64,000 bases of DNA from the NCBI GenBank assembly GCA_029204225.1, contig CM055112.1, forward strand, positions 28,359,746-28,423,745, read 5' to 3'. The DNA comes from Diphasiastrum complanatum. Its lineage: Eukaryota > Streptophyta > Lycopodiopsida > Lycopodiales > Lycopodiaceae. Each line of letters opens with the position of its first letter. The first letter of the stretch is position 1. The notes under the pieces were generated by a model that had not been told where the DNA came from, ran no database searches, and saw only the letters and a list, made by a program, of their open reading frames with translations. Positions 11,289 to 51,767 of this stretch are shown here, piece by piece. A program made the position numbers and the translations under genes.

Positions 11289-11479
11289 CGCTATTGTCCC
11301 TCCAGCTTTGATGCTAAGGCAGCTACCTCTACATCATACACACACTGTTTATGAACCTACATCCAAAACGCCATTCCTAGCACTTCTCTTTGCTATAAAT
11401 TTTTAGATCCCCTCTCCAAAAGAACATTATAAATCCTCACTCAGCCCACTCATGATCATGCAATTGGAGGAACATGATC

Positions 11480-23805: not shown

Positions 23806-24430
23806 TTTGAATGAGAGAACCTATGATAGACTGATAAGGGTAATTGCACATTTCTTGTTGATCTGCCTTTGTTCTGGGGCACATGTCTTTGGATAGCTTG
23901 CATCTTGGAGTGTCTATGGGCTTGCAATCCTCCATGTCGTATCTTCGAAGTACATTAATTAAGTAGGATTGTTGGCTTATGGTGATCCTTCTACTTGCGC
24001 AATCTCTGTGAATCTCCATTCCAAGTAGGTAATGGATTGGACCTAAATCATTTATCTCAAAATCTGATGAGAGTAAGGACTTAATTTTTTGCAGCAACTG
24101 ATTTGAATTGATGATGATTAGAAAATAATCAAAGTATAATGCTATTATAACATAGCTTGGCCCCTTTGGTTTTAGATACACATTTGAACCTGCGGTGCAG
24201 GAGGTAAAGTCGTGCTACAACAAGAAACAATTTATTCTATCATACCAGGCCGTTGGATCTTGCTTCAGACCGTATAATGCCTTATGCAATTTGCATAGTA
24301 GATGCTCCTTGCCTTGAGGGATGTAACCTTCTGGTTGATAGATGTAGACATCTTCTTGTATGTATCCATGTAGGAATATTGTTTGGATAGTTCCCTTGCA
24401 AATTGAGCCTCTTTTAGTTAATTATCGCCA
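23805..24430 (-). pseudogene. Copia reverse-transcriptase fragment
   Basis: The minus strand shows the Copia RT order: PEGYIPQGKEHLLCKLHKAL, then a broken stretch, then YFDYFLI where the catalytic YVDD should be, then INDLGPIHYLLGMEI and SIIGSL. The YFDY change and stops show it is dead. It breaks off at SIIGSL and runs straight into gag sequence, so it is a chimeric junction rather than one element. Confidence 0.7.
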
Positions 24431-24439
24431 TCTGGTGAA

Positions 24440-25329
24440 TATTCAGATCTTCTGCAGCAAATATAGCCTATAAGGTATGAATAGACTGAGAAGCTAGTTA
24501 CTTAAGACCTTTTGGTCGTTTGATCACTTTGTGCATCTACAGATTGTTCAACTCAACAACACCTATCACTCCTTCTCTTCATTCAGATACATATTTATAG
24601 TTGTCAGAGTCTTTTGATTTATTGTAATTACAATTTACAAGATGATTAACAGTCGTTTAAGCAAGATCCGTAGATGCATTATTGGAGCGTCGTGAAGGAG
24701 GAGAAGTACAAAGTAACATATCCTTCGTATGTGTTGTAGTGCAAGGATGTAGGCCGTGATGGCCGTAGTCTGTCCGCAATCGTTTGAACAACCACTAATT
24801 ATTCGATCAGTTGTTGATCGTTTGCTTTATAGGTGATCGTTTGCTTCCTTCGTTGATAACCGTAAGTGATAAATTACGAAGCTAAACGATGAGATGGGTC
24901 AACCGTTGTTAGTCGACTTTGTAGGAACTCGCAAATCGTTGTCGTTGGTTGACTTCGTTGATAACCATAAGTAGGTTGCTTATGTTTTCAAACGGTTGAG
25001 GAGAGTTGACTCTGGTCATAGCTTCCATCGTAGTAAGGAGGTCACTTGTGGTGGTCGACGGGATTTCGCAAGTGCTCGTAGATAGTAACCTACGGATTTT
25101 AACGACTCCCTTGTGATTTGTGGTTTCTTGCGGTTTGCAGTTTGAGTAGTGCTTCTCCGTAAACATTGATTTAACGGTTCCCTTCGGTCAGACCGTAATC
25201 TTGTGATGGCTTTGTGCTTTTGCCTGATTCAACTTTGCGTGTATTTTGTAGACTGATTCAGAGAGATAGAATTCTTGAGAGTCGAAGGAGGGCAAAGGGA
25301 TGAGTAGGAGAAGATTAGAATTCCAACAC
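24440..25329. other. Non-coding DNA between Copia fragments
   Basis: No ORF of recognisable family. Repeated words such as GATCGTTTGC and TTCGTTGATAACC(A/G)TAAG (24851, 24956) suggest LTR-like or tandemly repeated sequence. Confidence 0.35.
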
Positions 25330-26137
25330 CTTGTTCCTATCATCAAGAGTAATGTTGACATAGCATGTGCATCCAAAGGTTCTTAAAAAGTTGACACTCA
25401 GCCTCTCCTTGATTAGCATCTCAAAAGGTGTCCTTCCATCCAAAATAGCACTTGACCACTATTGCACAAGAAATTGGCACACAACAAAGCTTGATCCCAA
25501 CATGGTTTGTCAAGATTAGCACTTAACCTCATGGCTTTGGCACTTTCACATAAAGTCCTATTCTTCCTTTCAGCCACTCCATTTTGTTGTGGGGTCCTTG
25601 ATGTTGTATACTCCCTCTTGATCCCATGCTCATCACAAAAGGCCTTGAACTTGGTAGATATGTACTCACCACGATTGTCACTCCTTAAACACTTGATCCT
25701 TGTGGAAAATTGGTTCTCCCTTCATTCTCGAACTTGATAAAGGCCTCATACACTTCATCCTTGCTCTTTAGTAGATAGATACAACAAAAATTACTAAAAT
25801 CATCAATGAATGCTACATACATCTTAGCTCCACTATTGTTAATTGTAGTAAATCCATGAATATTCGAATGTACAAGTTGAAAAGGCTTTGAAGATCTAGA
25901 TGTAGATCTAGTACAAGGTTGTCTATGTGACTTAGACAAAGCACAAGACTCACAAACATGTTTGATGCCACTTAAGGAACTTGGAAGACCTATCACAACC
26001 TTCTTCCTAGCCATTACCTCCAATGACTTGAAGTTGAGGTGTCCCATCCTTTTATGCCAAACCTCTTGAATAGGTATTTGCTCCCTTGCAACACATCCAA
26101 CTTGGTTAGCAATAACACAAGCATCTAGTTTGAACAA
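25330..26137 (-). pseudogene. Copia integrase fragment
   Basis: This contains the HHCC zinc domain (VWHKRMGHLNFKSLEVM, CESCALSKSHRQP) and the start of the catalytic core with SNIHGF (Asp replaced) and FIDDFSNFCCIYLL. A frameshift near 25690 separates a further frame with the PQQNGVAERKNRTL segment that ends the core. The fragment stops near 25330. Its 5' side abuts a different integrase fragment at about 26145. Confidence 0.75.
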
Positions 26138-27683: not shown

Positions 27684-30488
27684 ATGGACAAGCTTGATGG
27701 AGCCAATTACCATCTGTGGAAATTTAAGATGAAGACTGTACTAATGACAAAAGAATTGTACGACATTGTTACAGGTGCAAAAGAGAAACCCGAAGCGGAC
27801 GATGCGACAATCACCAGATGGAAGCTGAAGGATGGAAAAGCTTTTGCGCTGATCATCCTCAACATCACGGATACATAGATCGACCATGTATCTGAGGCTC
27901 AGACATCGAAAGAAGTTTGGGACATCTTGAGAACACTATACGAAGTGTGAATATAGCTTCCAAACTACATCTCAGGAAGAAATTCTACTCCCTCAAGATG
28001 ACGAATGGTGATTCTCTACAGAATCACATTGATCAATTCAAGAACCTGCTAGGGCAAATGGCCACTGTCGGATATGTCATAGACGATCAAGACGCATAAT
28101 GCAACTGCTTACAAGCTTGCCAAGTTCTTACGACAGCTGGGTGATGATTATCATGACTAATCCAGAATTGACTCTTTCGAGAGTCATCACTATGTTGTTG
28201 TAGGAAGACAAGCGAAGGAACAAAGCCTCAAGTTCCTCAGCTGATTCTCACGCCTTGTACACCAACAAGGGCACAACAAAGCAGAAGAAGAAGAAAAGCC
28301 CGAAGCTATCAAAGCCAGACCAGAAACCAGCTCAGCACAAGAAACAATTGAATCCGCAGACAAAGAAGAAGTTGTTCTGCAGATACTGCAAACAAAACAA
28401 CCACTAAATACAAGACTGCCGAATACTTCAAGCGAAGAACAACAACAAAGGGCAATCGAATCAAGTGGCAAATGTAGCTGCAGAAGCTCTACAGCCCATT
28501 CAAGAAGCGGATCATGATGCCTTCATGACCAACCATCAAGGAGCATCTGGCGACAGTTCTTGGTTCCTAGATTTTGGGGCCACTCAGCACATGACTAGCT
28601 TGATTGGCTGTTTCGAGTCCTATACACCTTACAGTACCCAAAAATTTGTTCACCTTGGCGGCAATAGCACACAAGCTATTAAAGGTGAAGGAACTGTAAG
28701 ATTATGCTTTGCAAATGATCAATCTAAGCTACTCTCCAAAGTTCTGTATGTACCTAAGTTATCCACGAATCTGCTCTCTGTAAGCAGAATCACAGATCTA
28801 GGACACAAAGTAGAATTCGAATGTGACCAATGTAAAGTAGTTGATAGGACAGGCAAGATCCTAGCACTCGAAAAGAGGCACAGATACTTGTATAAATTAA
28901 GTCATTCTTTTTTTGCCTCTAGTCAGGCTCTCAGTACTTCAATTCAGTCAAATAAAGGTTTACTTTGGCATTATAGACTTGGTCATCTAAATTATGCTGT
29001 TGTACAATGAATGTCTAGACAATCTATTGTTCTTGATCTCGACTATCCTCGTAAAACAATCGAGCTACCTGTCTGTCAAGACTGTCTAGTTGGAAAACAG
29101 ACTAGGAAGCCATTTAAGTCAAGCCATCAGCATGTTGCTAGAGGATTGCTAGATGTTGTACATTCAGATATTTGAGGCTCGATGAAAAATCCTTCGCTGA
29201 AGGAAGCCAAGTATTTTATAACCTTTATTGACGAATTCTCGAGAAAAATGATGGTGTACTTCATAAACAAGAAATCAGAAGCCTTCAACTACTTCAGAAT
29301 CTTCAAAGAGCGTGCAGAAAAGGAGACTGGAAGGACGATCAAGGCCCTAAGGTCAGATAACGATGGAAATATATCTCTGTCAAGTTCAATGAGTACTGCC
29401 AAAGACAAGGCATTGAACAACAATTCATCACTCCTTACAGTCCTCAATCTAATGGCTTAGCTGAGAGGAAGAACCGAACTCTGGTCGAATCTGCTAAGTG
29501 TATGCTAGCACATGCATCGTTGCCCAAGAGGTTCTGGACTGAAGTTGTTTCCACTGCAGCTTACATCCTGAACAGATGTTTGACCAAAGCCCTCTCAGAC
29601 AAGACACCCCATGAGGTGTGGACAGGCTCCAACCCTTTTTGAAGAACCTAAGAGTGTTTGGGTGCATTGCCTACGCGTAGATCCTAAAGGACACAAGGAA
29701 GAAATTGGACTTCCAAGGTCTAAAGACCATCCTGATCGGATATACTTCGTCTAATAACACCTACAAGCTGTACGATCTTGATACCCAACAAATCTTGTAT
29801 AGCCGGGATACAGTCTTTATCGAGGATTAAGTCGTCGACCTCAAAGGCAAGGATATTGCTCAAGAAGAACCTTCATCACCTGCCATTGACAAGACAATCC
29901 GAGCTTCTAGCTTAGGAATGTCTATCATCGACCCACTTCGAGACAACAAATCAGACGCAGATATTGCTGCTACTCAGCAACATATCCCAGGAGCGGTTCA
30001 TCAGTTGAATCCTCCCAAAAGATCAAGTTGAGTGCGCACACAGTTCACAAGGTATACTCCTGAGTCTGTCTGTCTTTTAATGCAGGAACCGACGACAGTC
30101 GAAGAGGCACTTAGCCAACCAAACTTTGATCTCTGGAGAGAAGCTATGGATAGAGAGTATTTCTCTCTGATCAAGAATCAAACATGGTCATTAGTCGAAG
30201 CTCCTATTGGTTGTAATATTATTGATTGCAAATAATTCTTTTAGATCAAATATAATGCCAACGGAGTGATTGATTGAAGAAAGTCTAGACTGGTAGCACG
30301 AGGATTCACCCAGATCCCAAATGTTGACTATCGTGAGACTTTTAGTCCAGTCGTCAAACATTCGTCGATCCGAATACTCCTGTCTTATGCTGCAGTTGCC
30401 GACCTCGAAGTACATCAACTCGATGTACAAACAGCCTATCTAAATGGAGTTATACAAGAAGATATCTACATGATCCAACCCGAAGGAG
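27684..30488 (+). pseudogene. Copia gag-pol pseudogene, truncated in RT
   Basis: In order: gag (MDKLDGANYHLWKFKMKT), a damaged zinc knuckle CRYCKQNNH near 28380, protease WFLDFGATQHMT (Ser replaced by Phe in D-S-G), pre-integrase LWHYRLGHLNYAVVQ, integrase core (HSDI, FIDEFSRKMMVYF, LRSDN), the C-terminal integrase region KTPHEVWTG, and the start of RT (LSQPNFDLWREAMDREYFSL, LVARGFTQ, LDVQTAYLNG). About ten stops or frameshifts interrupt it. RT ends abruptly at IYMIQPEGD, where the purine tract starts at about 30489. The RT catalytic YVDD, RNase H and 3' LTR are missing. Confidence 0.85.
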
Positions 30489-30975
30489 ACAGGGAGGTGC
30501 GAGTAGAGAGGTGGAGGAGCGGAAAGGAGTTAAAGGAGAGAGCAAAAGGGAGGAGCGGAAGGGACAGCAAGCGAGGGAGGGAGGAGGTGAGAAGAGAGCG
30601 AGAGAGCAGTAGGGAGGTGCGAGCAGAAGGAGTCGCAGAAGGAAGGAGCGGAGTAGCAGAGGAAGAGAGCGATGGGCGGGAGGAGGTGAAGGGAGGTGGA
30701 GCGAGCAGGGAGGGAGCGGAGGAGAGGGGGAAGAGAGTGAGAGAGAGAGCAGGGGAGAGAAGAGTGCAATGTGCAGTAGAGGGGAAGGGAGAGGGAGCGA
30801 AAGAGTAGGGAAGAGCAGGTAGTGAGAAGGGGGAGGGAGTGGAGCTATGGGAGGGAGCAACAACGTGCAGTAGAGGGGAAGGGAGAGAGATCAAGGAGTA
30901 GGGAGCGGGAGGGGGTGAGAAGAGGGAGGGAGTGGAGCTATGCCAGCGAGCAGGGAGGGAGCGGAGGCGGCTTAG
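30489..30975. repeat. Purine-rich tract, about 480 bp
   Basis: The plus strand is almost all A and G, with internally repeated words such as TGCAGTAGAGGGGAAGGGAG and GGGAGGGAGTGGAGCTATG. It directly replaces the rest of a Copia RT. Long ORFs on both strands come from base composition and are not taken as genes. Confidence 0.85.
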
Positions 30976-30989
30976 ATTATATTTGTATT

Positions 30990-31300
30990 TTATTTAAAGT
31001 TATTTTTTAAGGAGTTTTCACTAATGTTTCTCAATTCAGAACTTGATATATTCTCAACAATCTCGTTTTTAGCTGACGAAGTGGAAGACTTGTCTTCTTC
31101 ATCAGAATTAACTGGCATATCTTCCTCAGAATCTGTGTCCAATGTTGACAAGAAACCTTGTAAGTCAACTTTTCTATGTTGATGACGAGTGGAGGATGAT
31201 AGTTTTTTCATTAATCTAAGACGTTCTTTCAATATAGATATAGTCGACTTTCATAGATGATTGGTCATTGTCAACTCAAATTTTATTGGCAATATCTTAT
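30990..31300 (-). pseudogene. Acidic Ser/Glu-rich ORF fragment of unknown family
   Basis: The minus strand reads LQVDLKDKNKILPIKFEL, one stop, then a Lys/Arg-rich helix and an acidic tail (DTDSEEDMPVNSDEED), stopping at 30990. It lies about 700 bp downstream of the methyltransferase relic on the same strand. It could be a lost 3' exon of that gene or a separate element gene. No function can be assigned. Confidence 0.3.
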
Positions 31301-31309
31301 TCTTGTCCT

Positions 31310-32020
31310 TCAGATCTACTTGCAACATTTCAAATTCTTACCTTTCCAAAAAAGCATTTATTGAAGTGATGCACAACCAATAACACGAAATCTTATGAAA
31401 CGAGAAATAGCAAAAGACCCAATTTTTTTTTGTGAACTTACAATTTTCTAAAATTCAAGAATTTTTAAAATTCTAGATCTAGAAAATGAATTTATTATTT
31501 TGCAAGCTTGTATATTTTGCATTTAGTTAAAATTTAAACGAAGTATTGAAAAATATTTTTAAAATTGTGTATTAAATTAGCACAAAAAATAAAAATAACA
31601 CTTGTGTGCAATTTGTTATTACATAAAAAGTTGTTAGATTAAGCAAGTATAGCACAAAAAACAAAATATCATTTGTGTGCAATTTGTTATGATGTAAAAT
31701 AGTTGTTAGAAAAATCAAGTGATGGTAAAATTTTAAAAATTATTAGTTTTAGTAAAAAACAACAAAACAGAATTTAACATAAATTTTAGGACTTGTTTGA
31801 AATTTGATATTTGTAGTTTAAGAATTAAGTAAACTAAACAAATCTAATATTAAAAAAGAAATGCTAAATTTGTACCAAATATTACTTAACAATAAAATCA
31901 TTCACCAAAAAGATTATTAAAAACATTTAATAAATAAACATTTTGTACAAGAACCTTTGGAATAATAGAGATTTCATATAAAATAAAATAGTTTGAAATT
32001 ACATAGTCTCAAATTTTCAC
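31310..32020. other. AT-rich non-coding DNA
   Basis: Very AT-rich DNA with no recognisable coding sequence except the tandem duplication at 31578-31720. Confidence 0.5.
31578..31720. repeat. 72-bp tandem duplication
   Basis: Two diverged copies start TAGCACAAAAAA at 31578 and 31650, each containing CTTGTGTGCAATTTGTTAT or a close match and GTTGTTAGA. Confidence 0.8.
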
Positions 32021-32024
32021 AGAG

Positions 32025-32877
32025 TCAAAAATTCTCAACCAGATTATTTGCATCTGGAGTAGTAGCCCTTCCAACCCTTGTGTTTGTTGGAGCTGTTGTC
32101 CCGTCTTGAACAATTACTTCTTCAACTACTTCGTAGCTTTGCTCAGCCATTTCTGCCAGTTCTCCTTCATCACCAACAACACCACTTGTAGTTGGTTGAG
32201 GCTCCTTAACAAATGGAGCGATACCATCCTCAGAAGGGCCCAATTTGCCAACCTCTTGAAACTCATCGAGCAAAACTGTTACCAGCTAGTCTCATCTCAA
32301 CAAAACTTGCTAAACTCTCATCTAATTCTACGGCCACAACATGTCTGCTCTTTTGGACAACACATGCACTAGTGGTGCCACTACCACTAAATAAGTCCAA
32401 AATCCAGTCTGCGAGATGAGAAAACATTTCAATTAATTTATTTACAAGCTGTTGTGGCTTTTGATATAGACAAGCCACATAACTAGACATCGGATTTTTA
32501 AGTTTTTTGATCACTGTAGGAAAATCAAAATGATTTCCAAAATCGGTGTTTCCTATAGTGTTGTAGTGTAACATGGGTCTCTTTCCATAAGTGGAGAAGT
32601 AACAAATGCTGAGATATTCGATCTTGTTATAGAGACGTGCACCACCAGGATTGCGCACATTTGGTTTATACCTACAAACATCAAAAGCAAAAAGTCCAAA
32701 AATAGAACATGTTTAAAACAACAAATCGACTTGTGAATATAAATGTTTAATTACAATCAGTACTTACCAAATGATATTTTCCATCCCTATGTTGCAGACT
32801 TCCAATAGGGCCTTCTGAACACCTACTTGTTGCCAACTGGAGTGAAATATCACTATCCTCCAAAGCGGAGCAGTAGT
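32025..32877 (-). pseudogene. Beta-class DNA methyltransferase-like gene, 3' part
   Basis: This is the 3' half of a split gene; the 5' half is 38805-41274. The exon next to the Copia insertion (32877-32768) encodes APLWRIVIFHSSWQQ and ends at a perfect donor GTAAGT. After a 96-bp intron the last exon starts at 32671 (acceptor TTTGTAG) and restores a Trp codon. It carries NPGGARLYNKIEYL, then WILDLFSGSGTTSACVV at 32371-32391, the AdoMet-binding motif I (FxGxG), then VVAVELDE. A frameshift near 32270 leads to an acidic C-terminal tail ending at 32025. Motif I lies after the catalytic motif, the order of beta-class N6-adenine/N4-cytosine methyltransferases. It is not the MT-A70 family usual in plants. 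Confidence 0.75.
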
Positions 32878-33567
32878 TGTGAAAAGTACAATACTAAGGA
32901 CCATAAATGGATCTTTGAATGATCCACAAGGTGATTGTATGCTTGTTAAACAATCTATTAGAAACTAGTCATCAGAAAACAAGATCTAGTTTAGCAGCTT
33001 GATAGGAAACAAGTAGAGACAATCAAAACATTGATATATTAGTATAATCCAACTCCACAGGTGTGGAAATAGGCTGTAGTACGGCTTGTAGACAGTGTTT
33101 ACAAAGTACCAAAGCTGAGTTTCATTGGAAATCAAGAGTAATCACCATACAATGAGAAGAAACTCGAGTTTCTCCTTGAGGCTTCAAAAAGTTTGTATCT
33201 TCTTACTATGGAGAATGGGGATACATAGTAAAATACACTTCCTTTGCTAAGTTAGGTGAAAATCTAGCATGTAATAAGGAAGTAGGCTCCACTTTCTTGC
33301 CCTAATGTGAAAACCCTAGCCTAGATCCAAGAGTCATGCTTGGTAGGTGCATGGTAGATACAAATCTCATCATAAATCATGGTCTAGATCCTACAAAGTA
33401 GGAATCACTACCAAATGGACACAATCACTCCTCTTGACTCGTGGTAACCTACTTTAGGTCTGTATGTACAAGTGGCACTTTGGCCATTCAAGTAACCAAC
33501 AAACAATATTGACAAAATGTACAATATTCTACATGGCTAGATTTGCCAATGTAGGCAATTTTTCACA
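32878..33567 (-). repeat. 3' LTR of the nested Copia element
   Basis: 690 bp, TGTGAAAAGTAC...GGCAATTTTTCACA on the plus strand. It pairs with 38115-38804. Confidence 0.95.
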
Positions 33568-36500
33568 CTCCTCCTCAAATCTAGCCTTGGAGATCACAAT
33601 GCTTTTATCAATAACTCCAATTGAAGATCTAAGCTTGACAAATGAATCTTTAGATAAAGATTTAGTAAACAAATCAGCCAAGCAACTTGATGATGGCATG
33701 TGTTGGAGCTTGATCTCTTTAACTTGCACTTTTTCCCTCACAAAATGATGAGCAATTTCGATGTGTTTGCTCCTTGCATGGAATGTAGGATTAGTTGCAA
33801 TTGATTGGGTTGATTGGTTGTCACAATAGATGATAGGGATCTCCTCCTCCATGACATGAAGCTCCACCAATAGCCTTTTGAGCCACAAGACCTCCTTGCA
33901 TGTTGATGTCAAGGCCTTGTATTCGGATTCTGTGGAAGATAGGGAGATGGTATCTTACTTTTTGGAAAGCCATGATACTACTCCATCACATAAAAAGGTG
34001 GCAAAGGCACTTGTTGATCTTCTATCCACTTTGTCACCTGCAAAATCCAAGTCACTATAGGCTCTTAAGCCAAGATTAGTTCCTCTATACAAAATGACAA
34101 AATTCTTAGTGGATGAAATGTATCTAAGAACTCTTTTGGCCATGTTCCAATGTGAAACTAGAGGACTTTGCATGAATTGGCTTAACTTTCCAACACTATA
34201 ACTAAGATCAGGTCTAGTTATAGTTAAATAGATCAAGGAGCCAATAAGCCTTCTATATAATGTGATGCCTCAAAGGATGCTTCATCACAACCAATAGATG
34301 CTTTTACATGTTGCTCCATTGGTGTCTCAATGCCTTTACAATTCTTCATTCCAAATCTATCTAGGATGGATGTATCATATTTATATTGACAAATGAAGCT
34401 AAAATCACATCCTTTAATAACCTCTATTCCAAGAATGAAGCTCAATAGGCCGAGATCTACCATCTTAAACTCTTTTGCTAAAGCAATTTTTACATCTCTA
34501 ATTCCATCTAGATCATTACCGCTCAAGATAATGTCATCTACATACAAAACAAGAATAATGATCATGCCATCACGAAAACTTATATACAATGATGGATCAT
34601 AGGCACTCATTACAAAATTGATGGAAATGAGAAAAGAGTTTAGCCTAGAGTACCATGCTCTAGGTGCTTGCTTGAGCCAAAAACACACCTTTCCTTCATG
34701 CTTTGCCTTGATGAAGCCCTCGGGTTGCCTCATGTAGATCTCTTCCTCCAAATAACTATTGAGAAATGCATTTGTGAAGTCAAGTTGGAATAGCTCCCAA
34801 TTGAAGGTTGTAGCAAGACTAACGATCAACCTTATACTAATAAGCGTAGCCATAGGAGCAAAAGTCTCATCATAATCAATGCCTTTGGTTTGTAAAAAAC
34901 CTTTGGCAACAAGCCTAGTTTTATGCTTGCTTATTGATCCATCTTGATTATACTTCAATCTAAATACCCACTTGCAATCAAGAGGTTTCTTCCCTTGAGG
35001 AAGATCCACAAGATCCCAAGTGTGATTCTCAATAAGAGCATCATACTCTACTTGCATAGCATCCATCCAACTTTTAGACTTACAAGCATCTTCATAGCAT
35101 GTTGGCTCATCTAACATTGAAGTAAGAAAGGTGTAAGATGTGAGAGATGATGAGCCTTCCCTTTGATCACCTTGACCATCATAGGTGAGCCTCAATGGCT
35201 CGGATCTTGCCCTTGTAGATCTTCTCGAAGTTCTTGGAGTTCTTGGAGTTCTTGCATCTTGAGGTGGATCCTCAAGTTCTTCTTCACTTGGAAGCTCCTC
35301 CTCCATCCCAGCATGATCCGTGCAATCAAGATGACTAGTAGCATTATCATCCAAATCACAAGCATGTCCTTCATAAAAAATAACATCCCTACTCACTATC
35401 ACCTTGCTAGTAATGGGATTGAAGACTCTATAACCTTTGCTATTCTCACCATATCCCACAAAGATGCCTTTGATGGATGCTGCATCATCCTTCCTTCTCT
35501 TATCCAAGGATTGGTGTACATAGCAAGTGGATCCAAAAACTTTGAGATCCTTGAGAATTGGGCTTCTCTCCAAATAGATCTTCAAATGGTGTGATTCCTC
35601 CAATGGTTTGGTTTGGCAATCTATTGCACAAATAGTTAGCACAAGTTAGATAGAGAAGCATCTAGCCTTAAGGCCTTAGCACACTCACAAAGAGATCTAT
35701 TTCTTCTCTCACTCACTCCATTTTTTTGAGGGGTGTATGGACATGACAACTCCCACTTTATGCCATTAGAACCACAAAAGTCAATCAACTTATTGGAGAT
35801 ATATTCACCTCCATTATCACTCCTTAATACCTTAATCTTGGTACTAAGCTGATTTTCTACCAAAGTCTTGAACTTTACAAAAGAATCAAACACCATTGAT
35901 TTGCTAGACAAGAGGTACATCCAACAAAATCTAGAATAGTCATCAATGAAGATTACATAGTACTTGGCACCACCATTAGACTCATGTGAAAAACTATGAA
36001 CATCCGAATGGATGAGTTCAAGAGGAGAGTTTGATCTTGATGTAGATCTTGAGAAGGGTAGTTTGTGAGCCTTTGAGAGGCTGCATGCTTCACATCTCTT
36101 CCCACACTTTGACAAATGCTTGGGGAGTCCAACTGCAAGCTCCTTTGCAACCATAGATTCCATGGCTTTGTAGTTGGGGTGGCCCAACCTTTTGTGCCAC
36201 AGTTTCACCTTTTATAACTCCACCTTTTCCAAGTTAACACTCTCCACTGCAACATTAGCATCAAGCTTAAACAATCTACCTTGCTTAAAGCCTTTGGCTA
36301 TACATTCATCATTTCTAAGGATGGAACAAACTCCATGCTTAAATTGTACATCTAGGCCATTATCCATTAACTGGCCAACACTAAGCAAATTCTTGGTTAA
36401 CTTAGAAACATAAAGAACATTATCAAGATTCGTCCTTTTGGATGATCCCACATACAAGGGAATTGTTCCTATTCCACTTTTCTTACATTCTTGACTACTT

Positions 36501-37480
36501 GCAGTATAGATTGATCTATGTAAATCATTGTAAGAAAGTAAGGTGGAGAATATGTCCTTTTGATATGTCATGTGAGAACTTGCCCCACTATCAATCCACC
36601 AAGAATCATTGGTGTTGCTCTTGGATGATGGTGGTTTGTTGGAAACCATCAAGGATGACTCTTCATCCTCCTCCTCCTCCTGATGTGCAATGTTGCTTTG
36701 TTTGCTCTCTTGTGCCTCCTTCTTCTTGAGACATTATGATGCAAAATGTCCTTTCTTTCCACAAAAAACATTTGTACTTGGACTTGTCTTTGATCTTGCC
36801 CTTTGAGCTTGAAGCCTCATCCTCCTCCTTGGTCTCCTTGAAGTGCTTCTTCTTGCTTTTGAATGAGAAATTAGCTTTCTCATCACCATCCTACATAGAA
36901 ATAGCATTCATTCTTGCATTGGTATGCAACATCCTACACTCTTTAGCTACTAATACACTCTGTAGCTTTTCTATAGTAGGCAAAGTGTCTTGGATTGCAA
37001 AGCTTTGGACCAAATTTGTAAAGCCACTCCCTAGACCATTGAGGACAATCTGAACAAGCTCACTATCTTGAATCTTCTCTCCAATGGAAGCTAACTCCCT
37101 ATTAAGAGACTTGATTCTTAGCACATAATCTTGTGCACTCTCATCACTCCTCTTCATGCTTTGTAGAATCTGATTCCTAAGCATGAGAACCCTCAAAGTG
37201 TTACTAGACTCATAGATGGATTTTAAAGATTCCCAAGCCTCTTTAGCACTCTTACATGATGATACTTCCCTTAAAAGATCATTGCTTACATTCATCTTAA
37301 TACAGTGAAGTGCAAGCCTAGACCTCTTCTTGTATCTCACTAATTCCTGTGCACCTAGAGGTTCATCTTCATCATCTATTAGAAACTCATAAAGATCCTA
37401 GAGCACCATTAGTGACTCTATCCTCACTTTCCAAATAGAATAATTGGTAGAATTTAACCTCTCACTAGCTTCTAGAAGGT
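33529..37480 (-). pseudogene. gag-pol of the nested Copia element
   Basis: Reading downward: UBN2-type gag (37340-36891), zinc knuckle CFFCGKKGHFAS with a frameshift and stop near 36755, protease with WIDSGASSHMTY (36590), pre-integrase WHKRLGHPNYKAM and CEACSLSKAHKLP, integrase core (HSDVHSF, FIDDYSRFCWMYLL, LRSDNGGEY), RT with the intact LYVDDIILSG near 34535, and RNase H (ITRPDLSYSVGKLSQFMQSP to IIYCDNQSTQSIATNPTFHA). RT alone is open for 469 codons. Only a few stops and frameshifts break the polyprotein, so this is the youngest-looking element here, though not autonomous as written. Confidence 0.9.
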
Positions 37481-38101
37481 AGGCTCCCACTGATCCCATC
37501 TTACTGGCAAGATTCTACACACAAGATATAGATTTGTTTGGACCTGAAACTCACAAAGGTTTCACTCAAATGTTGACTTCTAATCCAACAGATGGATTTG
37601 TAATCACAGTTCTATCACTCCCTCACAAAGCTGGAATGAAGATAAGATGAGATGAAAACTACTCTTTAGCAAATCTTGCCAATCTTGGCTATTCTTGGAC
37701 AAAAACTGACTCTATCTCTCTCATTCACTTTGATGTACTTTCAAGACCTGGTTTCCACTTTAAGAAGGTCTGAAATCAGCATAGACTAATTAGTTTTCAT
37801 GAAACAAATTCAAAACTAATCAATGGCAAGTGATCTTGGTAGCTTATCCTAGGATTTGCACCAAAAATTACATCAAATTGACACTAGATAAATTTTCTAT
37901 GATCCAATGAATATGGGTTACTGAATGCTGGTTCAGAGATGCCCACACGTGTGAACAGTATGGATTTTGATCCTGAAAAATTCTGGGATCAAATCTCCTC
38001 ACCAAAACCTGGATACCAGCTCGCCCTTCCAATACAGCTTTTTGCACCAAAACCTGCTAAAACTGGATTAGATTCAAACACAGATCAACGGCCTTGTACT
38101 T

Positions 38102-38114
38102 GACTCTGATACCA
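38102..38114 (-). promoter_or_regulatory. tRNA-iMet primer-binding site of nested Copia
   Basis: The minus strand reads TGGTATCAGAGTC directly after the 5' LTR, matching the initiator-Met tRNA 3' end. Confidence 0.9.
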
Positions 38115-38804
38115 TGTGAAAAGTACAGTACTAATGACCATAAATGGATCTTTGAATGATCCACAAGGTGATTGTATGCTTGTTAAACAATCTATTAGAA
38201 ACTAGTCATTAGAAAACAAGATCTAGTTTAGCAGCTTGATAGGAAACAAGTAGAGACAATCAAAGCATTGATCAATTAGTATAATCCAACTCCACAGGTG
38301 TGGAAATAAGGCTGTAGTATGGCCTGTAGACAGTGTTTACAAAGTGCCAAATCTGGGTTTCATTGGAAATCAAGAGTAATCACCATACAATGAGAGGAAA
38401 CTCGAGTTTCTCCTTGAGGCTCCAAAAAGTTTCTATCTTCTCACTATGGAGAATGGGAATACATAGTAAAACACACTTCCTTTGCTAAGTTAGGTGAAAA
38501 TCCAGCATGTAATAAGAAATTAGATTCCACTTTCTTGCCCTAATGTGAAAACCCTAGCCTAGATCCAAGAGTCATGCTTGGTAGATGCATGGTAGGTACA
38601 AATCTCATCATAAATCATGGTCTAGATCCTACAAAGTAGGAATCACTACCAAATGGACACAACCACTCCTCTTGACTCGTGGTAACCTACTTTAGGTGTG
38701 TATGTACAAGTGGCACTTTGGCCATTCAAGTAACCAACAAACAATATTGACAAAATGTACAATATTCTACATGGCTAGATTTTCAATGCAGGCAATTTTT
38801 CACA
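38115..38804 (-). repeat. 5' LTR of the nested Copia element
   Basis: 690 bp, the same ends as the partner LTR at 32878-33567. It is followed by target duplication GTAGT. Confidence 0.95.
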
Positions 38805-41274
38805 GTAGTGACCTCCAAGAAACCAACAACGACCTCTTTCACTTCAGTGTACTTAAACGAGCGATCGTCATTGAATGACCCCATAGTTTAAACCCGTATG
38901 GAATATCCGCGATGTAGAGAGTGTAAGGTCTTCCTTTTACAAATTTGGTTATCTCTCTTGCATCACATTGTTGTATTGTATAAAAACATGGAAGACCCTC
39001 AACAGACTTGGGAATAAACGTTTCTTTGAGATCATCATCAATGTTTAAGTCTCCAATATGTTATAAATCTCTGCGTTTTTTCTCGGTTTTGAAGGTGAGT
39101 TCTAAATTGTTCTGGAAGCTGTCCACTCTTTTTATCTTCAAAACTCTGTGAAAAATAGAAGTACACTTATGCTAATCATGACATTCAAATGTGAAGTTTG
39201 TTACTAGTGACATGAACTTATGCTAAGCATGAATGTTAATAAGAAAAAACAATAATATCAAAGAAAATAAATGATAATAGAAATACACTTATGCTAAGCA
39301 TGAATTATAATCTTAAAACCATTTATCTACAGGAGATGTTAAGATATTAGAAATACACTTATGCTATGCATGGGTCTCTCAAATGCTCTCAAATGCTAAA
39401 CTTGTACTTAAAAGTTGAATAATGATGTCAAAAATAACAATTTAAAAAATAGTTAAGAATAAACACCCATGCTTAGCATAAACAATCTTTGCAAATCGGT
39501 AATTTAAAATTAAAATTTGTTAGAGAGCCTTATCATATCCTTGAATAAAATAAGAAATCTTTGGAGCTCCTCATCTTTTGAGTTGTTTGGGTACAGCCTA
39601 TGGCATTCCTCCCAATCCTTGCAGTTGAGGCTCTTTAGCATAGCCTCTTGCACTTTTATGAAAAGCTTGTGTTTGTGATAAAATACAATATTTAGATTTA
39701 AGATTTTGCACATGAGTCAATTTTTTTTAAAAAAAAACACATTTGAAATTCTTTTCCCATCTCAGCAAGACTGAGCTGTCCGTCAACAACCTTTGAAAAG
39801 ACACTCACAACAACATCCTTTGAGAGGATGCTTTGTATATTTTTCCATTCTGATATCCCCATATCCTGTGGTATCGGGACAAGTGGATTTTTTTTTTTGT
39901 GGACGACGACTCTTTTGGAAGCTGTCCTTTTATTTTAAATCTGTCCAACTTGTCAAAACTTTTATCGATAAGGTCCCAAATCTAGAACAAAAAAACATTT
40001 TTAAAAGAAATTTTTAATTTGATTTAAAAACAATGTCGAACAAAAGAACAATGCCACTAAGAAGAAACAAAACTTACCTGCCTCTTTCGGAAGGCCAACT
40101 GAAAAAAATTATCATATTTCGTCAAAGAGGAGCCTGGATTTTTTTCATTGAAGGGTAGCCCAGTCTCCTGTGCACAAATGCACTTCAATTGAATATTTGT
40201 TTTGTCCCCTTCTTTGTGAAGTCTCATGTACTCCTTATGAAAAAATCTGACTCGTTGAATAATGGTCATGTTCAATCTGTAGTCCTGGTTGATATTATGG
40301 TCCCAGACAAGGAGCTTGGCTTTCTCAACAGTCAGCTCGACAAATACTATAGCACTAACTTGTCTAAAAGATTGTACATAAGGATACTCAATAAAGAGCT
40401 CCTTTCTAGCTTGCAAGCTATGAATTTCGCCCAAAACAAAAAAATTGTAAGTATCTATACACTGAATATCAAAATCTGCCACTGTCGTACAGTCAACAAA
40501 GTCAACAAAGACAATAAAATGAGTAACAATGGCTTGGGTATGGTCCTTAAATTTTATTTTTAAATTATGTACATGGGAAGAATTGGGCTCCCTAACTTCC
40601 ATGGGCCTGTCACTGGTGGCTGGGTCAATGGGAGGCCTCTCACATTGTTCAATATCAAGAATGAAAGTGGTGGCTTGGATTTTTTTGGATTCATGAAGAT
40701 TCTTGCAACATCCCTACTGGTTGGCTCAAGATTGATTCTTGCCTCAGGTAGATTTAAGCTAGAAGCCTAGGGCTGGGGTTGGGGCTGGTGTTGGGGTTTC
40801 TTCTTGGAGATGGGATGTAAACCCCCGAGTCATGGATTTTAAGCCCTTAAGAGTCATGGATTCAAAGCCTCTTGATTTTGGAGGGGAGGAGGCATCTTGA
40901 GTTTTCTCCAAAGCACTTCTTTTTCTCTTTGGAGTAGACATTAGGCATGTTCCAGTAGTGGAATCAGGTGTCTCGGTGTCTTTTTGACTGGAGGAAGTCA
41001 AACTCTTGCGAGACGATAATGATCTCACAGATTTTTTAAGAGAAGGGTCCTCTTTTTTCTCAAGAATCACAATGTTAGTAAAACCATCATTCTCATATGC
41101 AACTGCTACCTTCCAAAGCACGTGTCCTTGTGCTTTGAAGGTAGACAGCCCTTTGCCAGAAGTATCAGCAGTCCAAAGGAAGAGGTCAGTGAGTTTTTGG
41201 CTCTCTCAACCCTTGGTAAAGTAAAATAGGTGCTTAGTCATGTCTACTTTTTCAAGATTCGAAGACTGAGCCAT
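38805..41274 (-). pseudogene. Beta-class DNA methyltransferase-like gene, 5' part
   Basis: Several exons read downward. A Ser/Lys-rich N-terminal exon starts at ATG 41274 (MAQSSNLEKVDMTKHLFYF) with a TGA at 41208. A globular exon ends at 40078 with donor GTAAGT (DHTQAIVTHFIVFVDF, LAFRKRQ). An exon from 39981 reads VPIPQDMGISEWKNIQSIL and SKVVDGQLSLAEMGKEF after an A11 homopolymer frameshift. An exon near 39660-39520 reads LNCKDWEECHRLYP. The exon 39138-38805 holds IADIPYG at 38893-38913, the place of catalytic motif IV (D/N/S-P-P-Y/W). It runs into the Copia insertion and continues in frame at 32877. The P-to-I change, stops and frameshifts argue it was dead or dying. Confidence 0.7.
39148..39480. 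repeat. Repeats of palindromic CTTATGCTAAGCAT in an intron
   Basis: The word TACACTTATGCT or ACTTATGCT followed by AAGCATG or a close variant is at about 39166, 39217, 39288 and 39358, with an inverted copy CATGCTTAGCATA at 39468. The pitch of the later copies is 70 bp. ATGCTNAGCAT is self-complementary. It lies in an intron of the methyltransferase relic. Confidence 0.85.
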
Positions 41275-41354
41275 TTGAATATCTGAAAAACAAAACAAGA
41301 AAATATGACAAAAGACACAAAACTTAAAACGACAAATCCTAACAAAAATATTCA

Positions 41355-41606
41355 CTCACATGCTGAGGACCTATGTTGAGCATAGGTTTGCTTTGGACTT
41401 ATGCTGAGCATCAGTCGAGAGCAAACCTATGCTCAACATAGGTTCCCACTCTTGACCTATGCTGAGCATAAGACAGGAGCGACAAACCTATGCTCAGCAT
41501 AGGTCCGCTCTCAACTTATTTTGAGCATAGGTTGAGAGTGGACTTATGTTGAGCATAGGTTTGCTCTCGACAAACATAAGTTGAGAGCAAACCTATGCTC
41601 AATACT
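41355..41606. repeat. Dense palindrome array upstream of methyltransferase relic
   Basis: At least eight copies of CTATG(C/T)T(C/G)A(A/G)CATAG lie within 250 bp in both orientations, many flanked by GAGAGCAAAC or its complement. Several full copies read ACCTATGCTCAGCATAGGT, a 19-base palindrome. The array starts about 80 bp upstream of the relic's ATG. Confidence 0.9.
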
Positions 41607-41609
41607 TCT

Positions 41610-42936
<1,327 letters not shown>

Positions 42937-43368
42937 CCCCAGAAGGTAGATATGCGAAGGGAAAAATTGTGAAAATTGTTAACTAGTTACATTGTTTTAT
43001 TTGGCAATATTGGCCTCCAAAGTGAAATTTCGACTTAGAGTTAGTTTCATAAATGTCAATAAGGCTCTAAATAGTGTTACTACTATTTTTAACAAGTAGC
43101 TAAGTGGATGAGGTCAATTTTGGACCCATTCTAAAGGAATTTTGGTACATTGCATTTGGACTAGTTTTTCTAGGTTGTTGGTTAAGTACCTAGAAGTTGC
43201 CATTTTAGGGCATACAGTGAAGAATAGGGCCAAATGATATTATGGTTGTTATAAATAGCTGTACTTGCATGGAGAACATTATCATTTGTTGATCATTCAT
43301 GTGGAGATCGTCCTCTCTCATGTCGAGCACATCCTTAATATCATTCAATGAAAAATATGGCAGGCTAT

Positions 43369-43984
43369 TCATATGGTATACAGGAATGCAAGCAGTGTCT
43401 TGCTTTTATCGTGTTCTTCTACACCTGATGTAGAAGATATTACCATCGACCGTGACAGAGCAGGGTCATACATCGAAGCCAGCCTAGCCTCTTCCTCATC
43501 ACCCAATACTTCGTCTTCTAAATTTTTGTCCACATCGACAATACATCTCTGAGTAGATGTTCTACTTGAAGAACCAACACCAATTGCTCTGGAAGATTGG
43601 CCTTCATCAGGTATTAAGACAGATATGAAGAAAACAAAAGCTATGCCCTCAGCTATAAACCTGCATGATCTCCTATGGGATTCACAATATTGTACCACTT
43701 TCAGGCTCTCGTCAAGCCTGGTAAACTTCCTATCATGCTTGTGCTTGGCTTCAGGCTGGCCAACTATCAGTTCATGGAAATGAATAAACTTCAGGCCATC
43801 AATAACAAGAGATAATTCTAGGATGCTAATCCAAAACTTTTCGAATAATTCCAATAGGTGAGACTTGTGCTCAAGCACAAATCTATCCACATCAAATTTA
43901 AGTCAAAAAAGAGACGAAAAGTACTCATCCCTGTCTAGAACACCAGCGTCAGAGAGGAACTTATGCAACTTGTCAGATTCCATA
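43369..43984 (-). pseudogene. Unknown ORF divergent from the H3-like ORF
   Basis: From an ATG near 43984 the minus strand reads MESDKLHKFLSDAGVLDRDE, meets one stop after SSLF, then continues open for 173 codons from 43890: helical and charged (DRFVLEHKSHLLELFEKFW), then Ser-rich, then an acidic stretch with DEEEARLASMYDPALSR, ending at 43369. I do not recognise the family. It is divergent from the H3-like ORF at 44805 with an ~820-bp shared upstream region, so the two could have been co-regulated or parts of one mobile element. Confidence 0.35.
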
Positions 43985-44357
43985 TCAGAAATGACAGAGA
44001 ACACTGGATACTAGACGATATCACAGGCACGCAACGGTTAGTTGGAAAAAAAAAAAAACAATAGCATCGCGTTGTAGTGATATTGGACAGTCGAAACAAA
44101 TATCCAATATCGCAGGCACGCGAGGGAGTGCTAGCAAATAAAATCAAAAGCGGTAGACTCGCGTGGTTGCGATATTGCCTTCAAGATTTCCGAATAGCAA
44201 AACGTTTTATGACAGTGTTTAGCCCTTATATAGATCCCGCAGATTCATCGCAGCCATTCGAAAATCACTGTTAGATACGCGACACTTCTAAGATACGTCA
44301 ATTTCTGTAATGTGTGTGAAGCATTTATGTGCAATGTCGGCCAAATCCCATAGGTGA

Positions 44358-44517
44358 CATGTGTGTGGTTGAAAATCGGACACGTGTATCTGCACGTATG
44401 GAGTAATCATTAATAAAACACACGAATCAGAAATTGGCATGTGTGTGGTTGAAAATCGGACACGTATATTTGCACATGTGGAGCAATCATTAATAGGACA
44501 CACCATTCAGAAATTGG
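44358..44517. repeat. 80-bp tandem duplication with ACGTG elements
   Basis: Two copies start CATGTGTGTGGTTGAAAATC at 44358 and 44438. They contain GACACGTGTAT or GACACGTATAT; an ACGTGG follows at 44519. ACGT-core motifs are plant bZIP-binding elements. They lie 50-200 bp upstream of the TATA box. Confidence 0.85.
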
Positions 44518-44561
44518 CACGTGGTGGCGTCTCTTCATTTAATGCATAAAAAATCTCTCTC

Positions 44562-44569
44562 TATATAAG
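44562..44569 (+). promoter_or_regulatory. TATA box of the H3-like ORF
   Basis: CTCTCTATATAAGCAGAG is a textbook plant TATA context, about 240 bp upstream of the ATG at 44805. Together with the ACGTG repeats it suggests the H3-like ORF had its own promoter. Confidence 0.6.
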
Positions 44570-44804
44570 CAGAGACCACGATTAAAAAACATTTGATTAT
44601 CAAATTTGTGAGTCGTTCCTTGCTCTCTGTCACCCAAACAAGATATCGGAGCCGCACAACCTTCTACATTGTTTCTGAGAGGCTTGGTCCCTGCTCGTGC
44701 CCCTGCGATATTGGAATCTCTTGGGCTGATATCGGAGCCACGCGAGGATCTACATACGATTAATTCATCTATGACCTAGTCGTGTGTCTACGATATCGGA
44801 AGGA

Positions 44805-45564
44805 ATGGAAAAGACTAAACAGACCGCGCGTCCAAAATCTACTGTCCCGTCTGTTGGTCAACCTACATCATCCTTGCATCTTGCAGCTGCTCGACCCGTG
44901 CTAGGGGGACTGGCAGAAAACCCCGCCCATGGCTCAGAGATATTAGGAGTTGTAGAAATCCACCAACCTTCTGATACGGAAAGCTCACTTCAACAGAATA
45001 GTGAGGGATGTGACGAGATCTTTATCCGTGGATGTGAGATGGTGTGTGACTGCCATTGAAGCTTTGCATGCAGCCTATGAAGATTATCAAATTAGGTTTT
45101 TTGAGGACACTATGCTTGTTGTTGTACATGCAAAGCGGGTGACTATTATGCCCAAAGATATGGAGCTTGTGTTCAGGCTGAGGAATTAGTACGAGCAGGT
45201 GTTCAAGGCACCTCCACCTCCCCGACCCGCTCCTAGGGTTAGACCCCCTTATCAGAGAAAAAGAAAGCAGTCAAGGCCAGTGAGGTCAGGAACCAGGGCC
45301 TAAAAAAGCCAAATCAAGCTAGTTGAAGACCAACCAACTCATGATCAAGCTGGGTTGTCTAGGGTGGAAGCTGAAAAATCCCCCTCTCCTCCACCTCCGC
45401 CTAAAAGAAGATTAGTACTATCAGATGAGACCGAGCAGATGATAGGCCAGACCCAATTGATTCTTGCTACACTGAAAGTTCAAGAGGGTCTTCCTGTCAC
45501 TCCTGGTCTAAATTTTTTACCTCCAGAATATAGACAAACACTGTTGATGTACGTTATAGATTAA
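44805..45564 (+). pseudogene. Histone H3-like ORF with Pro-rich C-terminal extension
   Basis: ATG at 44805 gives MEKTKQTARPKST, close to the H3 tail start ARTKQTARKST. After a frameshift near 44895 a short frame reads GRKPRPWLRDIR (H3: ...RPGTVALREIR). After another near 44955 the rest is in one frame: KSTNLLIRKAHFNRIVRDVT (H3 helix alpha-N), VDVRWCVTAIEALHAAYEDY (helix 2) and RFFEDTMLVVVHAKRVTIMP then KDMELVFRLRN (helix 3). A TAG follows at 45187, but the frame stays readable through a Pro/Arg-rich basic stretch, a TAA at 45301 and a terminal helix to TAA 45562. TNLLI, RW, AYEDY and KD-MEL recall CENH3; loop 1 has canonical H3 length. No intron. It is a decayed H3 variant of unknown type, not a canonical H3. 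Confidence 0.75.
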
Positions 45565-48899: not shown

Positions 48900-51767
48900 G
48901 ACTCCCAAATATTTCACGTTACCACATGCAAAACCTCTAAGGATGCATTAGATTTGTTATCAAATCTCTATAAGACTCATGATGTAACCACTAGATTACA
49001 TCTTAGAAGGAATTACTCTTAGCATGTCTAATTCCACTGCCATCACTTCTCACATCAACAGCTTCAAGTCTTTATTGGATCAGTTGTCAGTTGTAGGATG
49101 TTCTATTTAAGATGATAATGTTGTAATGACCTTGCTTTCTTCCCTTCCAAAGTCATATGAGCACTTTGTGGTGATGATTTCCACACAACCCGACCTCACT
49201 CTTCAAAAGGTGATTGGTCACCTACTTCAAGGAGAAATACGGAGAAAGACTAGCAGCCTATCCATCAAAGACAAATCAATGGTTCTATACACCAAGAAGA
49301 AAGACTATTCCAAGGGAAAGAATCAAGTGCAGCAGCAACAACAGAAGCCTCACACTCAAGTTGAACATGGTGGATCACTCAAGAAGCTTTTCTACAAATA
49401 TTGCAAGAGAGCCGATCACGACATCAAGGAGTGTCGTATTCGGATCTACAACGAGGCAAACAAACAATAGCAGCAGTAGCAGCCAGACTCCTCCAACGCG
49501 GCGAAATTCAAGAAGCAAGATACACTTGTTAATGGCTTAGAACAACAGCAACGAAGACTATGATAGTTGGTACCTGGACAATGGCGCTACCCAACACATA
49601 ACCTCTCGCAATGAATGGTTTATTGAGTATGCACCTTACAGCAGAGATCAATTCATCCGTTACGTGCAGAACAGATCCAGCACCAAAGTTGTCAACAACA
49701 AAACTCCTCATGAAGTTTGACATGGGCACAAGCCTAGTGTCAGCCATTTAAAAATCTTTGGTAGTATATGTTTTGTTCACATTTCTAAATAGCTTAGAAA
49801 GAAGCTGGATCATAGGACAAATAAATGTATTTTCATTGTTATCTTGATGAACATAAAGTTTATAAAGTTTATGATCCATCCACCAATGTAGTATTTGTCT
49901 CTAGGGATGTAATATTTCAAAAACCTACATACTATGATTTTAAACAGCCATCAATAAATGATGTTATGTCATTTCATCCTATTTTATGTAGCATGGATCT
50001 TCCAACAATGATGGTTTTTTTACAAAATCTACAATTACAACTACAGATGCCGAGCAACTAATATTACCTGTCATCAGACCAGACCAAGCTAGCTCGAACA
50101 GATCTGGAGAAATTCAAGAAAAAATATCATCGCATCCTGGTCAACCAAACATCCGCAGAACCTCACAGACTAAGACAGTTCTTGAGAGGTATACACCTCA
50201 ATCATTATGGACTTCATTAGAAGAACCATAGAGCCATCTTGAAGCAATTAACTCCAAGGATGTTGTGGGCAAGAAGCTATAGAAAGTGAGTACAACTCAC
50301 TTTTGATGAATAAGACCTGGACATTGGTCGACTTCCCCACTCACAAGAGAGTTATCGACAACAAGTGCATCTTCAAGAAGAAGATTTGATGGTTCCATTG
50401 CTAAATGGAAAGCATGGCTGGTGGCTAAAGGATTCACTCAAGTCTAAGGAGTGAATTATCAAGAAATCTTTAGTCATGTCATCAAGATACAATCAATCAG
50501 GACTTTGATTGCGTTAGTAGCCGCAGAAGATCTTGAAATGCACCAAATGGATGTCAAGACATCATTTCTCAATGACAATGTCGAAGATGAGCTGTATACC
50601 TTTCAACCGACGGCCAAGAGCACAAAGTGTGCAAGCTGCACAAAGCAATCTATGATCTGAAACAGGCTGCAAGAACATGGTTCGATAGAATCAACTCTTA
50701 TCTCATTCAATTAGGATTTTCAAACAATTCAGCTAATTGTAATATTTATTCGAAGCATATAGGCATCAATTCAGCTCATGTAGCTCTTTACGTAGATTAT
50801 GCATTTATTTCGTCTAAGGACACTTCTCTGCTGCACACTACTAAGAGTGATCTGTCAAAGGAATTTGACATGACTGATTTAGGATCTATCCATTCTTTGC
50901 TAGGAATTCACATTATTAGAAATAGGTTTCAGAAGAATATCTATCTTAGCCAACAGACATATCTAAAAGACATTTTAGAAAAGTTTCATATGTTTGATTG
51001 CAAACCAATTGATATTCCAATGGATCTAAGTATAGTATTGACTAAACCTACTAGTGCTGATTCTGATAGTGAAGTGCTCAACATAGCGAAGTACCCTTAT
51101 CATTCACTAATAGGATCTTTGATGTATGCAATGTTGTGTACTAGAGCAGATTTAGCATACACTGTTAGCACGTTAAGTCAATACATGTCTAATCCTAGGA
51201 TCTCTCATTGGAAAGCATTAAAGAGAGTGATGAGATATATTCAGGAAAGTCTAAATCACATTTTGTGTTATGATGGAAATGCTATTAATCCACTCGTCCT
51301 GCGAGGGTATTCCAACTCAGATTGGGGAGGAACAGTCTCTACCAGAAAATCTACCTTCGGGTTCTATTTCTATCTGGTAGGGGGATTTCGTGGAACTCAA
51401 AGAAGCAGAAATCAGTTGCACTTTCTTCGACAAAGGCAGAGTACATCGTAACATGCCAAGCTTCAAAAGAAACTGTATGGATTAGGTTATTACTTCATGA
51501 ATTACATCACACGCAGTTCAATGCTACTACCATTCTGTGTGACAACTTGAGTTGTATTTCACTGTCACTAAATTTTAGATTTCATGGCAAATCTAAGCAC
51601 ATAGAAAGCTTTCTCAGGGCAAGTGATCCTTCAATATTGCTCCACAACAGAAATGGCTACAGACATCTTCACCAAAACGCTTCCTAGGATCAAGCATCAG
51701 AAGTTCTTCAACATGCTGAACCTTACGAAGATACCAAGGCACCAACCGTGACCTTAAGGGAGACTGT
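48900..51767 (+). pseudogene. Copia element with internal deletion of integrase
   Basis: Gag starts mid-domain (TSKDALDLLSNLYKTHDVTT) and has the Lys/Gln-rich tail and a knuckle YKYCKRADHDIKECR at 49410. The protease begins (WYLDNGATQHIT at 49570), then after about 30 codons the sequence jumps to the integrase C-terminal region (NKTPHEV, LKIFGSICFVHIS). The rest of protease, the zinc domain and the DDE core, about 1.2 kb, are missing. RT-RNase H follow with many frameshifts; LYVDYAFIS (50790) replaces YVDD. The 274-codon frame 50627-51451 covers the later RT and RNase H start. A polypurine-like TTAAGGGAGAC precedes the 3' LTR. Confidence 0.85.

Follow-up and report, generated by a model that had tools for sequence, protein, structure and literature searches.

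Within a 64,000-nucleotide stretch of the Diphasiastrum complanatum (Lycopodiaceae) genome (GenBank assembly GCA_029204225.1, contig CM055112.1, positions 28,359,746 to 28,423,745; hereafter the window), the minus strand between 41274 and 32025 carries the remains of a gene with a methyltransferase domain. We regard the locus as very probably the pseudogene of a nuclear, intron-bearing plant gene whose product placed a beta-class, S-adenosylmethionine (AdoMet)-dependent amino-methyltransferase domain at its C terminus, behind more than 500 N-terminal codons. What the locus displays directly is the identity and fold family of the C-terminal half of this domain, the order of its motifs, introns, a split by a Copia element, and an in-frame stop codon. 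The gene copy present in the window is unable to make an active enzyme.

In the literature consulted, bacterial-type amino-methyltransferases kept by eukaryotes are few, and those described are N4CMT of bdelloid rotifers and DN4MT1 of Marchantia (PMC8885841; PMC8566409). The presence of N6-methyladenine (6mA) in eukaryotes is described as controversial (PMC12695648).

Identity of the C-terminal domain

We translated all three minus-strand frames between 41274 and 32025 and took as the C-terminal query an untouched translation of 141 residues (window positions 32263-32688, minus strand; the first few residues derive from an intron). The original prediction, which was made from the letters of the sequence, had proposed a comparison with the Pfam family N6_N4_Mtase (PF01555). 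This family is matched with an E-value of 5.4e-12 and 46.6 bits, above its curated cut-off of 26.7. Other methyltransferase families in Pfam match more weakly and fall below their cut-offs, and the profile of MT-A70, a family whose motif is given as DPPW (PMC8885841) where the relic has DIPY, is absent among the Pfam matches listed up to an E-value of 10. In NCBIfam, the best models are those for an adenine-specific DNA methyltransferase and for CcrM, both far below their cut-offs.

A hidden Markov model (HMM) of 28 relatives from phages, viral contigs, and plasmids gives the same frame 60.2 bits, a score reached by none of 2000 shuffled sequences, and the next open reading frame (ORF) of the window scores 3.3 bits. 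When aligned with five enzymes, four from phages and one from a plasmid (alignment A1; 20-26% identity), the relic shows the motifs that we take to be IV, X, I, and II/III in the order typical of the beta class. This order had been predicted originally, and motif IV (38913-38893) does lie upstream of motif I (32397-32371) on the minus strand. The heptapeptide FSGSGTT lies at 32391-32371, and the longer DLFSGSGTT, to which the original prediction had assigned these coordinates, actually spans 32397-32371.

The C-terminal frame was also modelled with an alignment of 23 viral relatives, all of them methyltransferases. Residues 81-140 of the model have block-mean predicted local distance difference test (pLDDT) values of 82 to 94. 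A fold search of the PDB returned DNA amino-methyltransferases at ranks 1 to 38 and a protein of another kind at rank 39 (among the best 50 of 1057 matches at E-values up to 10), with E-values of 4e-5 to 3e-3 over 56-79 aligned columns for the first 38. These include M1.HpyAVI, RsrI (labelled beta class in the PDB listing), MboIIA, TTHA0409, M.BceJIV, CcrM, PvuII, and A. vaga N4CMT, the last being a bdelloid enzyme whose structure 8s9o_B stands at rank 13. As to the concern that FSGSGTT and DIPYG might belong to unrelated folds, the former lies in the expected fold, and the latter is matched only weakly by a profile, at the place where motif IV belongs.

The relic shares its domain profile, its IV-to-I motif order, and the fold of its C-terminal half with beta-class enzymes of bacteria and phages such as RsrI, MboIIA, M1.HpyAVI, and CcrM. 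It differs from them in its introns, its eukaryotic setting, its more than 500 additional N-terminal codons, its low identity, and its inactivated state. Relatives from phages, plasmids, viral contigs, and prokaryotes are distant (about 20-49% identity in segments, among the matches listed, so that closer ones may be missed), and those from prokaryotic genomes are spread over many phyla (again among the matches listed). Domains of this kind typify bacteria and phages, which raises the alternative of a bacterial contaminant or of a bacterial segment inserted recently. We find this explanation scarcely credible for a locus with spliceable introns, an in-frame stop, and an internal Copia element. 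No close relative was confirmed in the genome_contigs collection or in single-protein scans, which is a weak test because these scans need exact short peptides.

Motif IV and the probable reaction

The heptapeptide IADIPYG at 38913-38893 (minus strand) had been proposed as motif IV. The site holds, and its identification draws on a weak HMM match together with matches to PHROG families. The untouched motif IV frame aligns at the DPPYG position of the 28-relative HMM with 5.3 bits, a score that 2 of 2000 shuffles equal or exceed. A read-through query, in which motif IV occupies residues 74-80, matches two families of DNA methyltransferases: phrog_498 over residues 55-272 (E-value 1.3e-9) and phrog_67 over residues 74-264 (E-value 9.4e-12), the latter match starting at motif IV.

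The consensus for this motif is (D/S)PP(Y/F), compared with DIPY in the relic. Among 165 domains extracted from other loci, 139 have DPPY, 17 SPPY, two DLPY, two DIPY, and five other versions, counts that are biased because the scans used to collect the sequences relied on motif patterns and cover only the matches listed. Viral methyltransferases with intact frames can carry DIPYG (L016 and L077, fetched by a scan that permitted I at that motif position) or DLPYG (L052). Given such enzymes, the DIPY version of the motif would not necessarily be a product of decay, and its initial D argues, without proof, for adenine rather than cytosine as the target.

In the living ancestor, AdoMet was most likely bound by the SGSGTT loop, and the D-I-P-Y motif would have served to methylate an exocyclic amino group, presumably in DNA. 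The target would more likely have been N6 of adenine than N4 of cytosine, and the long N-terminal part might have supplied targeting.

A different outcome would follow if the gene were a relative of the known eukaryotic writers of N4-methylcytosine (4mC), descended from the same acquisition as Marchantia DN4MT1 and bdelloid N4CMT and likewise a 4mC enzyme. Bdelloids and Marchantia have been described as taking up bacterial amino-methyltransferases (PMC8885841; PMC8566409), the Pfam family is common to them and the relic, and the first 38 fold matches include bdelloid structures. The bdelloid enzyme resembles the relic in being a bacterial-type amino-methyltransferase with introns in a eukaryote, and it is described as a 4mC writer with an SPPY motif and a C-terminal chromodomain (PMC8885841), whereas the relic has DIPY and a possible tail (32028-32285) with no match in Pfam, and hence none to a chromodomain. 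At the level of the motif, at which the two were compared, the link to the bdelloid writer suggested in the original prediction is not supported. Marchantia DN4MT1, here compared by its description, is similarly an amino-methyltransferase of a land plant and a 4mC writer (PMC8566409). It is described as being of bacterial origin and as having no added N- or C-terminal domains (PMC8885841), in contrast to the long N-terminal part of the relic. We consider a shared origin with these 4mC writers improbable.

Several observations weigh against the interpretation of the relic as a beta-class, probably adenine-directed enzyme. A sequence search of the PDB places an antibody fragment first, and antibodies matched through SGSGT make up most of the 60 chains listed; methyltransferases appear there at E-values of 0.0005 or worse. 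The fold model is reliable over residues 81-140 and poor elsewhere (overall mean pLDDT 64.4, predicted template modelling score 0.56), and query TM-scores for ranks 1 to 38 are 0.37-0.43 over the 56-79 aligned columns. Moreover, since the alignment behind the model consists of methyltransferases, the fold result agrees with the sequence result and is not independent of it. The untouched motif IV piece alone has no match in Pfam, NCBIfam, or PHROG, and its 5.3 bits are weak. In Pfam, the read-through query aligns to profile positions 76-216 of 221, short of motif IV. D versus S at this motif does not fix adenine or cytosine. Finally, the apparent frameshift near 39890 sits in a homopolymer, where an assembly error is possible.

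Gene structure and decay

The features of the locus are collected in Table 1. Its outer bounds, a probable ATG at 41274 and a stop at 32025, are set from the open frames. A eukaryotic gene is supported by the introns at 40077-39982 and 32767-32672, both with good splice sites, and by another acceptor, TTTTTCACAG, which ends at 39146 and for which a clear donor was not seen. In this respect the earlier description of a resident gene with introns is borne out. A Pfam search of the N-terminal exon part (40762-41205) gave no match.

Table 1. Features of the methyltransferase gene relic and its upstream repeat array (window coordinates)
Feature	Position	Strand	Basis
Whole gene relic, interrupted by Copia	32025..41274	-	frame translations; ATG and stop bounds inferred
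Charged N-terminal part of exon; TGA in frame after 22 codons	40762..41274	-	frame translations
218-codon open frame upstream of methyltransferase domain; coding to about 40078	40060..40713	-	simulation
Intron, GCAG-GTAAGT ... TTCTAG	39982..40077	-	good splice sites
Exon with apparent frameshift in A/T run near 39890	39741..39981	-	frame translations
Probable exon (VQEAMLK...FKDMI), weak splice sites	39531..39653	-	translation and splice-site check
Probable intron; acceptor at 39146, no clear donor; five palindrome copies	39146..39530	-	
Exon with motif IV, interrupted by Copia; stop 39063-39061 or frameshift near 39060; frameshift near 38885	38805..39145	-	
Motif IV, IADIPYG	38893..38913	-	translation, alignment, HMM
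Copia long terminal repeat (LTR) retrotransposon, LTRs 32878-33567 and 38115-38804	32878..38804	-	GTAGT target duplication, RVT_2
Continuation of Copia-interrupted exon (APLWRIVIFHSSW...MENIIW)	32768..32877	-	frame translations
Intron, TTTG-GTAAGT ... TTTGTAG	32672..32767	-	good splice sites
C-terminal methyltransferase exon: motif X region, motif I DLFSGSGTT (32371-32397), motif II/III	32266..32671	-	PF01555, fold match
Possible C-terminal tail, acidic; another frame stays open for 86 codons up to a stop; putatively coding	32025..32285	-	
Upstream array, seven copies (up to two mismatches) of palindrome TATGCTNAGCATA, 28-31 bp apart	41372..41557	.	pattern scan

Short stretches of two exons of the relic (39110-39134 and 39913-39937) are 80% alike over 25 nt and encode KGQLPKES and SGQLPEQF. 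This repeat is perhaps an internal duplication, or else it arose by chance.

The split of the gene by a Copia element was also recognized correctly. The insertion of about 5.9 kb is flanked by GTAGT at 32873-32877 and 38805-38809, its reverse transcriptase matches the RVT_2 profile with an E-value of 3.4e-67, and its two LTRs are identical at 661 of 690 aligned positions (Kimura two-parameter distance 0.043). The exons on both sides had been said to read in one frame once the element and one GTAGT copy are removed. The pieces next to the element (38878-38807 and 32871-32770) do share a frame. The frame of motif IV (39051-38885) differs from that of the piece entering the element, and the one-frame reading is therefore true only of the piece adjoining Copia.

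Other disabling features accompany the insertion, which lies within a coding exon. A TGA follows the probable ATG after 22 codons, and several stops fall between 40762 and 40713. Frameshifts are apparent near 39890 (in a run of A/T), 38885, and 32285, and near 39060 there is either a stop in the motif IV frame or another frameshift. Because of these stops and apparent frameshifts we call the gene a relic. The exon frames and the frameshifts are provisional, being read from the relic itself.

The gene might conceivably still work if the Copia element were allelic or spliced out and the frameshifts were assembly errors, as the one in the A/T run near 39890 could suggest. The position of the element within a coding exon, the early TGA, the stops at 40762-40713, and the changes of frame near 39060, 38885, and 32285 all count against a working gene, which we judge to be very unlikely.

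Palindrome arrays and the question of a mobile element

Both the upstream flank and the probable intron 39146-39530 contain copies of the palindrome TATGCTNAGCATA. With up to one mismatch the window holds nine copies, all at this gene: six in the upstream array (41372-41557) and three in the probable intron. When two mismatches are allowed, 12 of the 17 matches in the window are located at the gene (seven upstream, five in the intron, within 39168-39480), with shuffled sequences expected to give 3.62 per 64,000 bases. The five intron copies compare with about 0.02 expected in 385 bases at the shuffle rate. The pattern was chosen from this locus, and its absence elsewhere in the window is therefore partly circular. 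Less circular is the recurrence, in a probable intron of the same gene, of a pattern derived from the upstream array. The palindrome may mark a site that the encoded protein bound or targeted, or it may be an unrelated minisatellite. A 21-bp repeat, TGAATGGCATGGATTTGCCCA, occurs four times between 41978 and 42318, farther upstream of the relic, with copies 76-100% alike.

Some DNA transposons carry subterminal repeats, and the palindromic arrays beside and inside the gene resemble these. Given also the repeat-rich setting, the methyltransferase could have been cargo of a mobile element, whether a DNA transposon or another kind, with the relic representing a dead copy of a multiplied unit. Terminal inverted repeats were sought between the flanks (29000-32030 and 41275-45500), and none was convincing. 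The top inverted match, 15 bp long, scores 30.2 bits, a value reached by 1 of 30 shuffles, with the next shuffles at 28.2. Profiles were also run on 20 of the 163 ORFs listed for the window, two of which are the gene's own N-terminal frames. The 18 neighbouring ORFs yielded no transposase, helicase, or recombinase, and the only element matches were to a Copia gag profile, which passed its cut-off, and to an integrase core, which did not. Within these flanks and ORFs, an origin as element cargo seems unlikely, though it is the most probable of the alternatives considered.

The surroundings hold various other features. A leucine-rich repeat (LRR) receptor kinase gene lies at 7560-11333 on the minus strand, its open frame counting 918 codons between stops. 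Part of it is repeated in inverted orientation at 18111-19989 on the plus strand (90.2% identity over 1103 bp and 84.7% over 426 bp). This receptor kinase gene and the Copia elements point to a plant host. A tandem array at 16050-16726 consists of 4.5 copies of a unit of about 152 bp. Copia-type remains occur at 49111-51687 (by profile, gag at 49111 and reverse transcriptase at 50591), at 28465-29457 (a weak integrase match at 29176), and at 22780-26137 (judged by eye from ORFs alone). No RNA family reaches its gathering score in the window.

The N-terminal block

Upstream of the methyltransferase domain, the open frame at 40713-40060 extends for 218 codons, a length attained in none of 1000 first-order Markov simulations of the region (longest 198). 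Searches of this block against Pfam, NCBIfam, PHROGs, the PDB, phage records, and viral_contigs gave no match at a curated cut-off or at an E-value of 0.001. The best PDB match was a formin domain (E-value 0.039), the best phage record had an E-value of 9, and none of 86 pattern matches in viral_contigs was confirmed. An AlphaFold model of the block alone has a pLDDT of 37.6.

By eye, the block resembles a ParB/sulfiredoxin-like domain (GEIHSLQARKEL ... VSAIVFVELTVEKAKLLVWDHN). Fusions of ParB with N6_N4_Mtase are described from phages, and sulfiredoxin is described as the commonest eukaryotic holder of the ParB/Srx fold (PMC12704722). A profile of 14 ParB sequences gives the block 2.3 bits, with 8 of 1000 shuffles and one other ORF scoring above it. 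A 23-sequence profile does not separate the block from shuffled sequences, of which 98 of 2000 equal or exceed its score, as do 36 of 200 with hhalign, and the block is outside the eight best of the 163 window ORFs. By these larger controls the ParB reading of the block does not reach significance.

Trees of the methyltransferase domain place the relic near the phage fusions. The 165 domains available for comparison came from 234 loci, of which 69 gave no domain by the pattern used, and the ParB profile that found 24 fusions among them was built from 14 of these. In a first tree with all 165, the relic falls in a node (0.927) with the 24 ParB fusions and three proteins lacking ParB (L200, L166, and L205). 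It is nearest to L200 and L166 (0.76) and sits on the longest terminal branch. These three proteins were dropped before the later trees. With 162 other domains, FastTree makes the relic sister to all 24 ParB fusions at a support of just 0.35. With 64 others, IQ-TREE makes it sister to L006, which has no ParB, inside a node of 22 ParB fusions and L006 at 93.

Were the block ParB-like, the relic would have the same order of parts as the phage fusions, near which its methyltransferase domain lies in these weak trees. It differs from them in that its likeness to ParB is not significant and in that the gene is eukaryotic. An ambitious proposal would place the gene in a plant family whose proteins join a ParB-like domain to a beta-class methyltransferase and correspond, in eukaryotes, to the phage fusions. 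The TATGCTNAGCATA arrays would then be the protein's own sites of binding or marking in self-regulation and self-marking by 6mA. This proposal is improbable.

Implications for plant DNA methylation

Among the papers screened by title and the opening of the abstract, none reports PF01555 proteins in seed plants, a result that does not amount to absence from the literature, since most subscription journals lie outside the range covered. If plants possessed a resident enzyme of this kind, encoded by an intron-bearing gene and combining a D-type motif with a long N-terminal region, the range of possible 6mA or 4mC writers in plants would be broader. An intact relative of the D. complanatum relic would open the question of such writers to direct testing.

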